From Halobiforma lacisalsi AJ5 (GTDB lineage: Archaea > Halobacteriota > Halobacteria > Halobacteriales > Natrialbaceae): a DNA stretch of 64,000 nucleotides. The notes beneath the pieces are model-generated. The model had not been told where the DNA came from. It did not search any database and worked only from the letters and a program-made list of their open reading frames with translations. Both the position numbers and the translations under genes were made by a program. The first letter of the stretch is position 1, and each line of letters begins with the position of its first letter. Where the stretch lies: contig NZ_CP019285.1 in NCBI RefSeq assembly GCF_000226975.2, positions 3,038,001-3,102,000 of the forward strand. The letters run 5' to 3'. Below, in pieces: positions 11,800-16,360 of the stretch.

Positions 11800-12696
11800 T
11801 TAGTCGCGTTCGGGTCGCCCGTTGCGGCCGAGTCGACCGTCGAGGTACCCGCGGATCCCGCTGATCGCGCTTTCGATCGAGTAGTTGCGGGCGACGTAGA
11901 CGCTCGCGGCCGCCAGCGCCGTCCCGGCGACGACGTCGAGGAACCAGTGGATCCCCAGATACATCGTCGAGACGACGACGCTAATGGCGAGCACGCCCGA
12001 GATGGGTACCCAGAGCGGATACTTCTCACGGGTCTGCCAGGCGATGAAGAAGACGGTCATCGACAGCGACGAGTGCAGCGAGGGGAACACGTTGGTGTTC
12101 TGGTTCACCTGGTTCGTGAGCGTCCGCGACTGCGGGAACGCGTCGTACAGCAGCCCCTCGAACAGCGTCGGCTCGAGGTTGCGCGGCCCCATCGAAAGGA
12201 AGAGGACGTAACAGACGAGGCCGACACCGTAGTTCACCGCGAACGCGACGATCAGCGTCGATAGCTCCTCCATCTCCTCGAGCGCGAAGTACGCGACGAA
12301 CGGGAACAAAAGCAGGAACGCGTAGCCGTAGATGTAGACGAACACGAAGTAGGCCGTCACTTCCGGGGTCTGGAACGACTGGAGGACGACCACCGGATAC
12401 TCGGGGAAGACTACCCGTTCGAATTCGAAGAGATACGAGGTGACCGGGTTGCCGATCACTTCCCGCTCGAGACGCACGACGACGTCGACGGTCGCCCATC
12501 GGAGAAGCAACACGACCGCGAGCGCGGCAAGCGGCAACAGACAGGCCCTGAGTCGCCATCGAAAGTCGTTCAGGGCCGTCGCTACCGGTCGCGGCCCGAC
12601 GACGACCAGGGTCGCGACCGCGAGCATCGTCGCGACGACCAGGGCGAGTTCGAGGACGACGGCGGCGAGCGTCATTCGTCTCGAGGTAGGATCCAT
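11800..12696 (-). CDS. PAP2-family membrane phosphatase/phosphotransferase (Aur1-like)
   Basis: 298 residues with about seven membrane helices. The catalytic motifs are FPSLHSSLS (PAP2 motif 2, His) and YLGIHWFLDVVAG (motif 3, His and Asp). The first PAP2 motif is less obvious, as in the Aur1/inositol-phosphorylceramide-synthase-like branch. Likely to act on a lipid phosphate or transfer a phospho-alcohol head group at the membrane; the substrate is unknown. It begins with MDPTSRRMTLAA and a long hydrophobic helix. It lies between the photolyase and a binding-protein gene, all on the minus strand but with gaps of about 100 bp. Confidence 0.88.
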   Translation of the reverse strand: MDPTSRRMTLAAVVLELALVVATMLAVATLVVVGPRPVATALNDFRWRLRACLLPLAALAVVLLLRWATVDVVVRLEREVIGNPVTSYLFEFERVVFPEYPVVVLQSFQTPEVTAYFVFVYIYGYAFLLLFPFVAYFALEEMEELSTLIVAFAVNYGVGLVCYVLFLSMGPRNLEPTLFEGLLYDAFPQSRTLTNQVNQNTNVFPSLHSSLSMTVFFIAWQTREKYPLWVPISGVLAISVVVSTMYLGIHWFLDVVAGTALAAASVYVARNYSIESAISGIRGYLDGRLGRNGRPERD

Positions 12697-12799: not shown

Positions 12800-14725
12800 C
12801 TACTCGAGCAACTCTCCATCGGCGTAGCGGTAGCCGGCGTCCCGGAACAGCGACCGCACGAGTTCGACGTCGATCTCGCCGTCGGTTCCGGGGAAGTCGA
12901 TGATCTCGATGCCGTCTCCCTCGTCCCCGTCCTCGTTTTCGTCTTCGTTTGCGTCCTGATTTTGATCACCAGTTCCCCCACCGGACCGACCGTTCGGCCC
13001 GAACTCGTCGTCGGAGAGTCCGACGAGCGCCCCCAGCGAGGTCGCCGGCTCCGCGAACCCACCGAACAACTCGAGTGCAATGTGTTCCCGGTCGACGAGC
13101 CGGGAGACGATCTGCCGGAACCGGGGGTTACCGAGTTCCGGATGATGGTGGTTGTACCCGATCATGTAGAACGAATCGGCCCGCCCCGTAACCGTCGACA
13201 CGTCCTCGGCATCGGTGAACCGGCCGATATCTTCGGGTGGGATGCCGTCGCCTGTTATGTCGATCTCGCCATCGAGCAGCGAGTCCATCATCGTCCCGAC
13301 GTTCGGGTCGATCCGGAAGCTGATCCCGGAATACTGTGAGAATCCCTCGAGGAACTCGGGCCGGTCGTCAGACTCCCTGAATACGTGGTCCTCGACCGGC
13401 TCGAGTTCGATCCTGTCGATCGTGATGTCGGTGATTTCGAAGGGGCCGGAGCCGACCGGCTCCTCGTTGTCCGTCGTCAATGCTTCGGTGCGTTGATCGG
13501 CGACGGGTTCCGTCCGGTCGCGCCAGACGTGTGCGGGCAGTATCGGGATCGAAAACGCGGTGGTCGCAGCGGGTCGCAACGTCTCGCCGAAGGAAAACCG
13601 GACGGTGCGATCGTCGAGCCTGTCGACCGTCTCGACGATCGTCCCCCGACTCCGGTATCGCGGTGCCGGCACCCCGCCGTCGACCGTGCCCATGGAGGTG
13701 TCCGCCAGGAACCGGTAGGTGAAGACGACGTCGTCTGCCTCGAGGGGTTCTCCGTCGTGCCACTCCAGGCCCTCGCGGAGCGTCACGTCGGCCCGAAGTC
13801 GCGGTTCCGATCCGGTGCCACGCTCGTCCCAGGAAACCTCCTCCGCGAGCCACGGGACCCGTTCCGTTTCGGTCCCGGAGTCGGACCAGTTCGGCTGCGA
13901 TTCGGCTCCCGTGTCGTCGCCGTTCTCGTCGTCTACTCGAGTGTCCTCGCGCGACGGACCCGTCTCGACTCGGCGAACCAGCGGTTCGTACAGCAGTCCC
14001 AGCAGGCCATCGATTCGGTTCCGGTCGACGACGAGCGGATTCAGGCGCTGACCGAGCCGATCGCCGTAGACCCCGACCTCGAGCGGCCCGTCCCGGGCCC
14101 CGTCGGCGGGTTCGCGAGAGAGAAGGTCGAAGTAATCCCCAGGACGGGAGAGCGTCCGCCGGGCGTCGATTCCGGCGCGATGTCCGGCGATCTCGATCGG
14201 GAAACCGATGGTCGTGTACGGCACGGTGTCGCCGAGGTACTCGAGCAACTCGGCGATCGTCTCCCGGCGCTGGTCCCCGGTCTCGCGTCGCTGTCGCTCG
14301 AGAAGGTCGTCCGCGAGCACGTCCGAGAAGTGAAAGGGGTTTTGCCACCCCTGTTCGTTGACGAACTCGGAGTGTAACAGTCCCCGCAGCGCGTCGTACT
14401 CCTCGATTCCCGGGTGACGGGCGACGAAAACGTCGTACTCCTCGTCAAGGAGTACGTCCCGATAGAGGTCGGCTTCCGGAACCGGTTCGTGGGTCACGCC
14501 GATCCCGGCGTCGCGAAGGTTCTCGCGGAACTGGCTCACGATCTTGGCCGCCGCGAGGTCGTCGTCCGCGGGCACCGTCTTGATCGTCAGTTCGATCTGC
14601 TCGGAACCGGCGGTGCCCGCCCGTGACCAGAGCCGTTCCGAACAGCCCGCGAGTGCCGCGGCGATTGCACTCCCCGCCCCTGCGAGTGCCCCTCGTCGCG
14701 TCGCCGACGGCGCGCCTTCGTCCAT
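12800..14725 (-). CDS. Family-5 (peptide/nickel) solute-binding lipoprotein with circularly permuted lobes
   Basis: 641 residues from the ATG at 14725. The Tat motif TRRGALAG and lipobox LAGC (Cys28) indicate an exported lipoprotein. Residues about 44-203 look like the C-terminal part of a family-5 binding protein (AKIVSQFRENLRDAGIGV, then YDVFVARHPG). Residues about 214-641 look like the N-terminal and middle parts (LNPLVVDRNRIDGLLGLLYEPLV, LRADVTLREGLEWHDGEPL, ADDVVFTYRF), ending at RSLFRDAGYRYADGELLE, where a canonical protein would continue into its C-terminal part. The order is thus swapped. No permease or ATPase lies nearby, so partner and ligand are unknown. A TATA-like ctatac sits about 25 bases upstream. 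Confidence 0.85.
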   Translation of the reverse strand: MDEGAPSATRRGALAGAGSAIAAALAGCSERLWSRAGTAGSEQIELTIKTVPADDDLAAAKIVSQFRENLRDAGIGVTHEPVPEADLYRDVLLDEEYDVFVARHPGIEEYDALRGLLHSEFVNEQGWQNPFHFSDVLADDLLERQRRETGDQRRETIAELLEYLGDTVPYTTIGFPIEIAGHRAGIDARRTLSRPGDYFDLLSREPADGARDGPLEVGVYGDRLGQRLNPLVVDRNRIDGLLGLLYEPLVRRVETGPSREDTRVDDENGDDTGAESQPNWSDSGTETERVPWLAEEVSWDERGTGSEPRLRADVTLREGLEWHDGEPLEADDVVFTYRFLADTSMGTVDGGVPAPRYRSRGTIVETVDRLDDRTVRFSFGETLRPAATTAFSIPILPAHVWRDRTEPVADQRTEALTTDNEEPVGSGPFEITDITIDRIELEPVEDHVFRESDDRPEFLEGFSQYSGISFRIDPNVGTMMDSLLDGEIDITGDGIPPEDIGRFTDAEDVSTVTGRADSFYMIGYNHHHPELGNPRFRQIVSRLVDREHIALELFGGFAEPATSLGALVGLSDDEFGPNGRSGGGTGDQNQDANEDENEDGDEGDGIEIIDFPGTDGEIDVELVRSLFRDAGYRYADGELLE

Positions 14726-15202: not shown

Positions 15203-16360
15203 ATGAAACTCGCACTCATCGGCTTCGGACAGGCAGGCGGGAAGGTCGTCGACGAGTTCCTGGCGTACGACGAGGCGATCGGCGGCGGATTCATCAACTC
15301 CGCGATCGCCGTCAACTCCGCGACGACGGACCTCAAGGGACTCGAGTACGTGCCGAAAGAGAACCGCGTCCTCATCGGACAGGCCCGTGTCAAGGGCCAC
15401 GGCGTCGGCGCCGACAACGAACTCGGCGCGACCGTCACCGAGGAGGACATCGACGAGATCCAGGGGGCGATCGACCGGATCCCGGTCCACGAGATCGACG
15501 CGTTCCTGATCGTCGCCGGAATGGGCGGCGGGACGGGATCGGGCGGCGCGCCCGTCCTCGCGAAACACCTCAAGCGGATCTACAACGAACCGGTCTACGG
15601 ACTGGGCATCCTCCCTGCCACGGACGAAGGGGGTATCTACACGCTCAACGCGGCGCGTTCGTTCCAGACGTTCGTCCGCGAGGTCGACAACCTGCTGGTC
15701 TTCGACAACGACGTCTGGCGCAGCGCCGGCGAATCCGTCCAGGACGGCTACGATCGGATCAACCGCGAGATCGTCGAACGGTTCGGACTGTTGTTCGCGG
15801 CCGGCGAAGTCGACGATGACGACGACGTCGCCGAGAGCGTCGTCGACTCCTCGGAGATCATCAACACCCTCGAGGAGGGCGTCTCGACGATCGGCTACGC
15901 CCGCGAGGAGGTCGATACGTCGGGCGGACTGCTCTCGTCGTTCCGCGGCGACGAGGAGTTCGACGAGGGACAGGCGACGAACCGGATGACGAGTCTCGTC
16001 CGCAAGGCGACGCTCGGCCGGCTCACGCTTCCCTGCGACGTCTCGAGTGCCGACCGTGGGCTGGTCGTCGCGACCGGCCCCGCGGAGCACCTCAATCGGA
16101 AGGGCGTCGAACGCGGCCGCCAGTGGCTCGAGGACGAGACCGGGAGCATGGAGATCCGCGGCGGCGACTACCCGCTGTCGGACCGCGACGAGGTCGGCGC
16201 GATCGTCCTTCTGTCGGGCGTCACCGACGTACCGCGGGTCGACCAGCTCCAGGAGGTCGCCATCGAAGCACAGGAGACGACCGAGTCGGTGCGCGCGAAC
16301 GCCCAGGACGAGTTCGCCTCGCTGATGGACACCGGCGGGGAACTCGACGCGCTGTTCTAA
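15203..16360 (+). CDS. cetZ: CetZ tubulin/FtsZ-superfamily cytoskeletal GTPase
   Basis: 385 residues. The protein opens MKLALIGFGQAGGK, with the nucleotide-contacting GQAGGK loop. The tubulin signature GMGGGTGSGGAP lies at about 108-119. GLGILPATDEGG and the following NAARS stretch match CetZ rather than FtsZ1/FtsZ2. The start chosen is the ATG directly before KLALIGFG; the frame is open upstream but unrelated. CetZ proteins are haloarchaeal GTP-dependent filament formers that control rod shape and motility. This genus usually has several paralogues; which one this is cannot be decided here. Single gene. Confidence 0.95.
   Translation: MKLALIGFGQAGGKVVDEFLAYDEAIGGGFINSAIAVNSATTDLKGLEYVPKENRVLIGQARVKGHGVGADNELGATVTEEDIDEIQGAIDRIPVHEIDAFLIVAGMGGGTGSGGAPVLAKHLKRIYNEPVYGLGILPATDEGGIYTLNAARSFQTFVREVDNLLVFDNDVWRSAGESVQDGYDRINREIVERFGLLFAAGEVDDDDDVAESVVDSSEIINTLEEGVSTIGYAREEVDTSGGLLSSFRGDEEFDEGQATNRMTSLVRKATLGRLTLPCDVSSADRGLVVATGPAEHLNRKGVERGRQWLEDETGSMEIRGGDYPLSDRDEVGAIVLLSGVTDVPRVDQLQEVAIEAQETTESVRANAQDEFASLMDTGGELDALF

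Follow-up and report, generated by a model that had tools for sequence, protein, structure and literature searches.

A circular permutant among the family-5 binding lipoproteins, encoded beside a PAP2-type membrane enzyme in Halobiforma lacisalsi AJ5

In which order are the parts of the binding lipoprotein encoded at this locus of Halobiforma lacisalsi AJ5 arranged, and with what does it work if no transporter lies beside it? We analyzed a stretch of 64,000 nucleotides (the window) of contig NZ_CP019285.1; its features are listed in Table 1. An initial annotation, made from sequence alone, had described the gene product as a natural circular permutant of a peptide-binding protein, in which a Tat signal and lipobox are followed by what is normally the C-terminal part, and which ends at a DAGY segment where canonical proteins run on into that part. 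Canonical order in a profile alignment, or an unrelated fold for the N-terminal 200 residues, would have refuted that reading.

Table 1 Features of the binding lipoprotein gene and its downstream neighbor in the window
Feature	Residues or length	Window position	Strand	Remarks
Permuted family-5 substrate-binding lipoprotein ORF	641 aa	12800-14725 (coding 12803..14725; stop 12800-12802)	minus	
Tat signal peptide and lipobox LAGC	aa 1-28	14642..14725	minus	From the sequence; lipidation of Cys28 inferred
C-terminal-like segment, in first place	aa 44-203	14117..14596	minus	PF00496 positions ~271-345 onward
Linker, ancestral C-terminus to ancestral N-terminus	aa 204-214	14084..14116	minus	Variable, gap-rich in alignment
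N-terminal and middle segment, in second place	aa 215-641	12803..14083	minus	PF00496 positions 3-248
Acidic low-complexity insertion	aa 576-609	12899..13000	minus	Most homologues have a short version or none; modeled with low confidence
New C-terminus, helix VELVRSLFRDAGY and YADGELLE	aa 620-641	12803..12868	minus	F627, G631 and Y632 conserved
PAP2_3 (PF14378) multi-helix membrane phosphatase/phosphotransferase	298 aa	11800-12696 (coding 11803..12696)	minus	E 1.6e-18; directly downstream
PAP2 motif GPRN, C1-like	aa 170-173	12178..12189	minus	Conserved 85/85
PAP2 motif PSLH	aa 205-208	12073..12084	minus	Conserved 85/85
PAP2 motif TMYLGIHWxxD (His250, Asp254)	aa 244-254	11935..11967	minus	H250, W251 and D254 conserved 85/85

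The whole window protein matches PF00496 (SBP_bac_5) with 144.4 bits (E 6.4e-42), exceeding the curated cut-off of 32.4 bits, and does so in two stretches. When the halves were scanned alone against Pfam, the first matched through residues 31-103 (profile positions 271-345, E 0.0055) and the second through residues ~290-566 (positions 3-248, E 6.8e-38), which is the reverse of the profile's order. Because the first half scores only weakly by itself, half-specific profiles were built from 31 homologues of the window protein, and it is on these that the case for this protein rests. Without iteration, the profile of the N-terminal half matches residues ~420-570 of canonical proteins with E values as low as 2.6e-12; that of the second, N-like half matches residues ~70-390, the N-terminal two thirds, of ordinary family-5 proteins. 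The iterated profile recovers the window protein with E 4e-36, and with iterated profiles 96 family-5 ORFs could be sorted into 38 permuted and 57 canonical proteins, leaving one undecided. The window protein is a permuted variant of SBP_bac_5 and not an ordinary member, as it meets the family score and lacks the canonical order, and it almost certainly has a circularly permuted mature domain, the order of its segments being rotated at profile position ~286/287. The claim of the initial annotation that the C-terminal part comes first therefore held: aligned separately to SBP_bac_5, residues 44-203 and 214-641 fell in swapped order.

A mis-called start or a split gene can be ruled out as the source of this arrangement, since in all window-type homologues examined the twin-arginine motif and the lipobox cysteine immediately precede the C-terminal-like segment. 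R10, R11, G27 and C28 are invariant in the alignment of 31 homologues. The protein is an archaeal Tat lipoprotein by these two signals, with lipidation itself inferred from sequence; such a lipobox is typical of archaeal binding proteins, as in SBP_bac_5/cluster C. The new C-terminus, with a helix at residues 620-629 in the AlphaFold2 model, corresponds to the point at which canonical proteins continue into the moved segment, as had been claimed, and the tail GEIDVELVRSLFRDAGYRYADGELLE is kept across the family, with PF00496 coverage of the second segment extending to position 284 in both paralogues from the same genome.

The AlphaFold2 model (pLDDT 82, pTM 0.81) is confident outside the signal peptide and the acidic loops and lends partial support to a two-lobe binding fold; an unrelated fold for the N-terminal 200 residues did not appear. 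In a Foldseek search its top PDB matches were all family-5 proteins (AppA 1xoc, TM1226 and NikZ). Because Foldseek aligns in sequence order, these scores do not cover the moved segment, which was not superposed, and with canonical PDB proteins the window protein aligns in order through its second half alone. No permuted family-5 structure was present among the listed PDB matches, all of which have canonical order. In ordinary family-5 proteins such as OppA and DppA, the site of the cut falls after the helix that ends in AGY and before the strand that follows it, within the lobe that does not hold the N-terminus. The lipid anchor of the permuted proteins would thus move to the other lobe, an inference by analogy with OppA and DppA and not from coordinates.

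The clearest proof of permutation comes from close relatives in which both orders occur. Of the seven family-5 genes in the genome of H. lacisalsi AJ5, four are permuted and three canonical, and four of the seven are linked to ABC transporter genes. One permuted gene (L145) is the first in a dpp-type ABC operon. By plain BLASTP, its residues 49-231 match residues 579-761 of the canonical orthologue L178 (71% identity, E 2e-90), and its residues 233-654 match residues 155-578 of the same protein (63% identity, E 0). The two are thus rotated versions of each other, with a mismatch of no more than a few residues. Across 243 Halobacteriales genomes, this orthologue family gave permuted unbroken matches in 16 genomes and showed the canonical order in about 30. 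A second pair, L206 (permuted) and L221 (canonical), shares 73% identity in both segments, and their signal peptides, N-terminal in both, are 81% identical. A fixed signal peptide combined with a rotated mature domain indicates circular permutation of the mature part. Homology of both halves to one and the same unpermuted protein in swapped order, which defines a circular permutant, is met at the profile level by the window protein and at 63-73% identity by these relatives. The initial reading of a natural circular permutation therefore held; the permutation recurs in family-5 proteins and is not unique to the window protein.

How often the order has changed was examined in a careful tree of 45 orthologues, in which supported branches force at least three changes. 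A single origin within the L145 orthologue family was rejected by an AU test in which all permuted members were held to one clade (p = 0.00096). Nor can the mixture be put down to recombination of one half, because trees of the N-segment only and the C-segment only both mix the orders, with L206 remaining beside L221. Canonical outgroups suggest that the canonical order is ancestral in this family, with reversions among canonical members not excluded. In a separate careful tree of 67 proteins, L181 (second ORF, permuted) nests among its canonical relatives L180 and L202. A different cut was seen in a family-5 protein of a metagenome-assembled genome (L234:2909-4909, genome G050), in which the first ~100 mature residues are now C-terminal; its residues 107-587 match L178 273-761 and its residues 591-666 match L178 172-248.

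The likely route, which is inferred, is that the mature domain was duplicated in tandem within the gene and the outer parts, then redundant, were lost. In the window protein the signal peptide has kept its position, the ~160 residues of the ancestral C-terminus now lead and the ancestral start comes next, with the chain ending after the DAGY helix; the same cut also arose separately elsewhere among family-5 proteins. Permutation by duplication predicts a tandem-duplicated intermediate (PMC3320104). One ORF (L185:3514-8259, genome G039) encodes one Tat signal followed by two mature family-5 domains in tandem that are 69% identical, and it may be an intermediate of the expected kind, located in another subfamily. 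In this it resembles the saposin/swaposin and DNA methyltransferase cases of permutation by duplication (PMC3320104), but here the signal peptide is fixed and only the mature domain rotates.

The only precedent for a permuted binding protein found in the open-access literature searched belongs to another class. TpMglB-2 (Tp0684) of T. pallidum, termed "Type Ic / Cluster Bc", is likewise a lipid-tethered ABC binding protein with a natural circular permutation, but it has a class I sugar-binding fold and a different cut, and no PAP2 partner has been reported (PMC4990184). Unlike TpMglB-2, the family-5 permutants include close orthologues of both orders, have several origins and have members in two domains of life. 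To explain the permutation, the authors of the TpMglB-2 study proposed tethering or the gain of the permuted part from another gene (PMC4990184). Tethering cannot account for permutation in general, since by eye none of the four bacterial permuted family-5 members examined has a lipobox. The open-access literature searched, which leaves subscription papers aside, yielded no report on permuted family-5 proteins or on a pairing of binding proteins with PAP2 proteins.

The initial annotation had noted that no transporter genes are adjacent, and this held: no ABC transporter genes adjoin the window gene. It had missed the conserved PAP2 gene downstream. The product of this gene is a PAP2_3 enzyme by its profile match and its conserved catalytic His/His/Asp residues, and its phosphatase/phosphotransferase activity is inferred. 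Its model has a pLDDT of 88.7, and its nearest folds are Aur1 (E 7e-4), IPC synthase and LpxE. It shares the PF14378 match and the PSLH and H...D motifs with the known PAP2_3 enzymes Aur1/IPC synthase, LpxE and PgpB; it differs from known PAP2 enzymes in its C1 motif and its binding-lipoprotein neighbor, and its substrate has not been identified. Among known PAP2 enzymes we found none that is partnered with a binding lipoprotein.

A PAP2 gene on the same strand lies directly downstream of 84 of the 89 permuted proteins of the window type. The five exceptions comprise one gene near a contig end, two second copies beside a pair, one with its PAP2 gene ~2.2 kb away and one without a PAP2 gene. 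Genomes carry up to three such pairs, and both paralogues of the window protein in its own genome also have a PAP2_3 gene immediately downstream. A tandem two-gene repeat of binding protein and PAP2 occurs in that genome (L006:8583-14561; G000:C1 ~3598600-3604600). Since the 4.4-Mb genome has only six PAP2_3 matches (four of them strong, three of these in pairs), we estimate from gene numbers that chance adjacency is likely well below one percent per locus. In Natrialbaceae the surroundings, including CetZ and photolyase genes, are often conserved too; elsewhere only the pair itself persists, and its retention where other flanks differ argues for a working link.

Several other genes were observed at these loci. 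Divergently upstream of the window gene, at 15206-16357 on the plus strand, is what we take, by eye and not by profile, to be a CetZ-type tubulin homologue, and the order cetZ, binding protein, PAP2, photolyase is conserved in many Natrialbaceae and not elsewhere. A membrane protein of ~410 residues without a Pfam match is encoded at L095:6642-7883 and about 18 other loci, mostly directly upstream of the pair on the same strand, and in one case (L113) between its two genes; it is possibly a third component outside Natrialbaceae. An LssY-like identity was suspected for an upstream gene conserved at other loci, but it has no Pfam match. Long frames that appeared to fuse the binding protein and PAP2 in one chain (L117, L118, L119 and L120) proved to be GC-rich read-through.

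The PAP2-linked proteins form one clade (100/100) in a careful tree of 67 proteins, and this clade sits inside a larger one (95/95) made up almost entirely of permuted proteins, among them ABC-linked archaeal proteins and four alphaproteobacterial ones. The deepest history of the larger clade is unsettled, because a long-branched canonical protein (L129) falls inside it, beside the PAP2-linked group. The PAP2-linked lineage is too diverged for a canonical sister to be named. The bacterial permuted proteins, located by tblastn, are colinear and in one piece with a permuted query, and the two annotated members, in Ketogulonicigenium and Nitratireductor, whose order was verified, head operons with permeases and ATPases. 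Cognate ABC permease/ATPase genes accompany the permuted relatives L125, L126, L145 and L243. Two of these, the archaeal L125 and the alphaproteobacterial L243, lie in ABC operons near M28-type peptidase genes (by eye for L125, from annotation for L243), which may suggest a common peptide-related substrate. The window type was found only in the order Halobacteriales, where full-length matches to a junction-spanning profile stop among 197 sampled genomes of the phylum. Restriction to Halobacteria is thus true of the PAP2 type in this sample and false of permutation as such, given the alphaproteobacterial members.

We propose that the window protein comes from an old permuted lineage, some of whose members, in both Halobacteria and Alphaproteobacteria, are linked to ABC transporters, and that in its branch the transporter would have been replaced as neighbor by a PAP2_3 membrane enzyme. 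It resembles OppA, DppA, AppA and NikA (SBP_bac_5/cluster C, PF00496) in profile homology over most of the chain, in its Foldseek matches and in its export signal; those proteins, however, have canonical order and an ABC permease partner, whereas the window protein is rotated and has a PAP2 partner. By inference from the two families, the lipoprotein would face outward and close on its ligand, and the active site of such a PAP2 enzyme would likewise lie at the outer side of the membrane; the two proteins would then act at the same surface. The lipoprotein would bind an extracellular ligand and work with the Aur1/IPC-synthase-like enzyme on the outer face of the membrane. Such a partnership is likely, but it is inferred, without ligand, activity or interaction data. 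Delivery of a phosphorylated substrate or acceptor to the enzyme ranks first among the possible roles, followed by regulation of PAP2 and then by service to a distant ABC transporter, and yet as an exact role it falls a little short of being probable. For the explanation as a whole, a permuted binding protein of old lineage with a PAP2 partner, the evidence leans modestly in favor.

Four alternatives were considered. In the first, which remains possible, the lipoprotein serves PAP2 as a sensory or regulatory subunit, and closure of its lobes on ligand switches the enzyme without delivering substrate. The strict pairing and close spacing of the genes would fit this, as would the fact that the fold neighbor Aur1 has been solved in complex with a partner subunit, Kei1; against it, Kei1 is not SBP-like, and no direct evidence separates regulation from delivery. 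The second, that the lipoprotein is an orphan serving an ABC transporter encoded elsewhere, with PAP2 acting in an unrelated step, is unlikely. Permuted relatives do head full dpp-type operons in archaea and bacteria, and the genome has its ABC-linked family-5 genes, but most PAP2-type loci have no adjacent ABC gene, the near-constant PAP2 neighbor is kept where flanks differ, and the pairs are found in multiple copies. The third is domain shuffling, in which the C-terminal piece of a different binding protein was joined to a truncated one; acquisition of the permuted part from another gene was suggested for TpMglB-2 (PMC4990184), and the halves of the window branch are too diverged to exclude it. 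It is nevertheless improbable, as both halves of L145/L178 and of L206/L221 match the same canonical protein at roughly equal identity (63-73%) and the two orders intermingle in the tree of either half. Finally, a chance resemblance of an unrelated N-terminal domain of 200 residues, to which only the weak stand-alone Pfam score lends support, is all but excluded by the profile matches to canonical C-termini, the iterated match of the window protein and the aligned invariant residues.

The preferred reading, a permuted binding protein partnered with PAP2, is broader than first stated, with permutation recurring in a large family and in two domains of life, and with a PAP2-linked branch outside the transporter context. 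Both the permuted class and its partnership have been hidden by public annotation, which names the pair an ordinary "ABC transporter substrate-binding protein" and a "phosphatase PAP2 family protein". A bolder reading, which taken jointly might as readily fail as hold, is that family 5 is a hot spot of permutation, in which rotation at the same point occurred several times and was perhaps reversed, in archaea and bacteria, with the signal peptide fixed and through tandem-duplicated intermediates, and that one old permuted lineage left ABC transport altogether and, together with an Aur1-like PAP2 enzyme, became a surface system of two genes. Natural circular permutations are otherwise mostly known from comparing distantly related proteins; here, the order differs between orthologues that share 73% identity, making the cause, route and cost of permutation directly testable in haloarchaeal lipoproteins.
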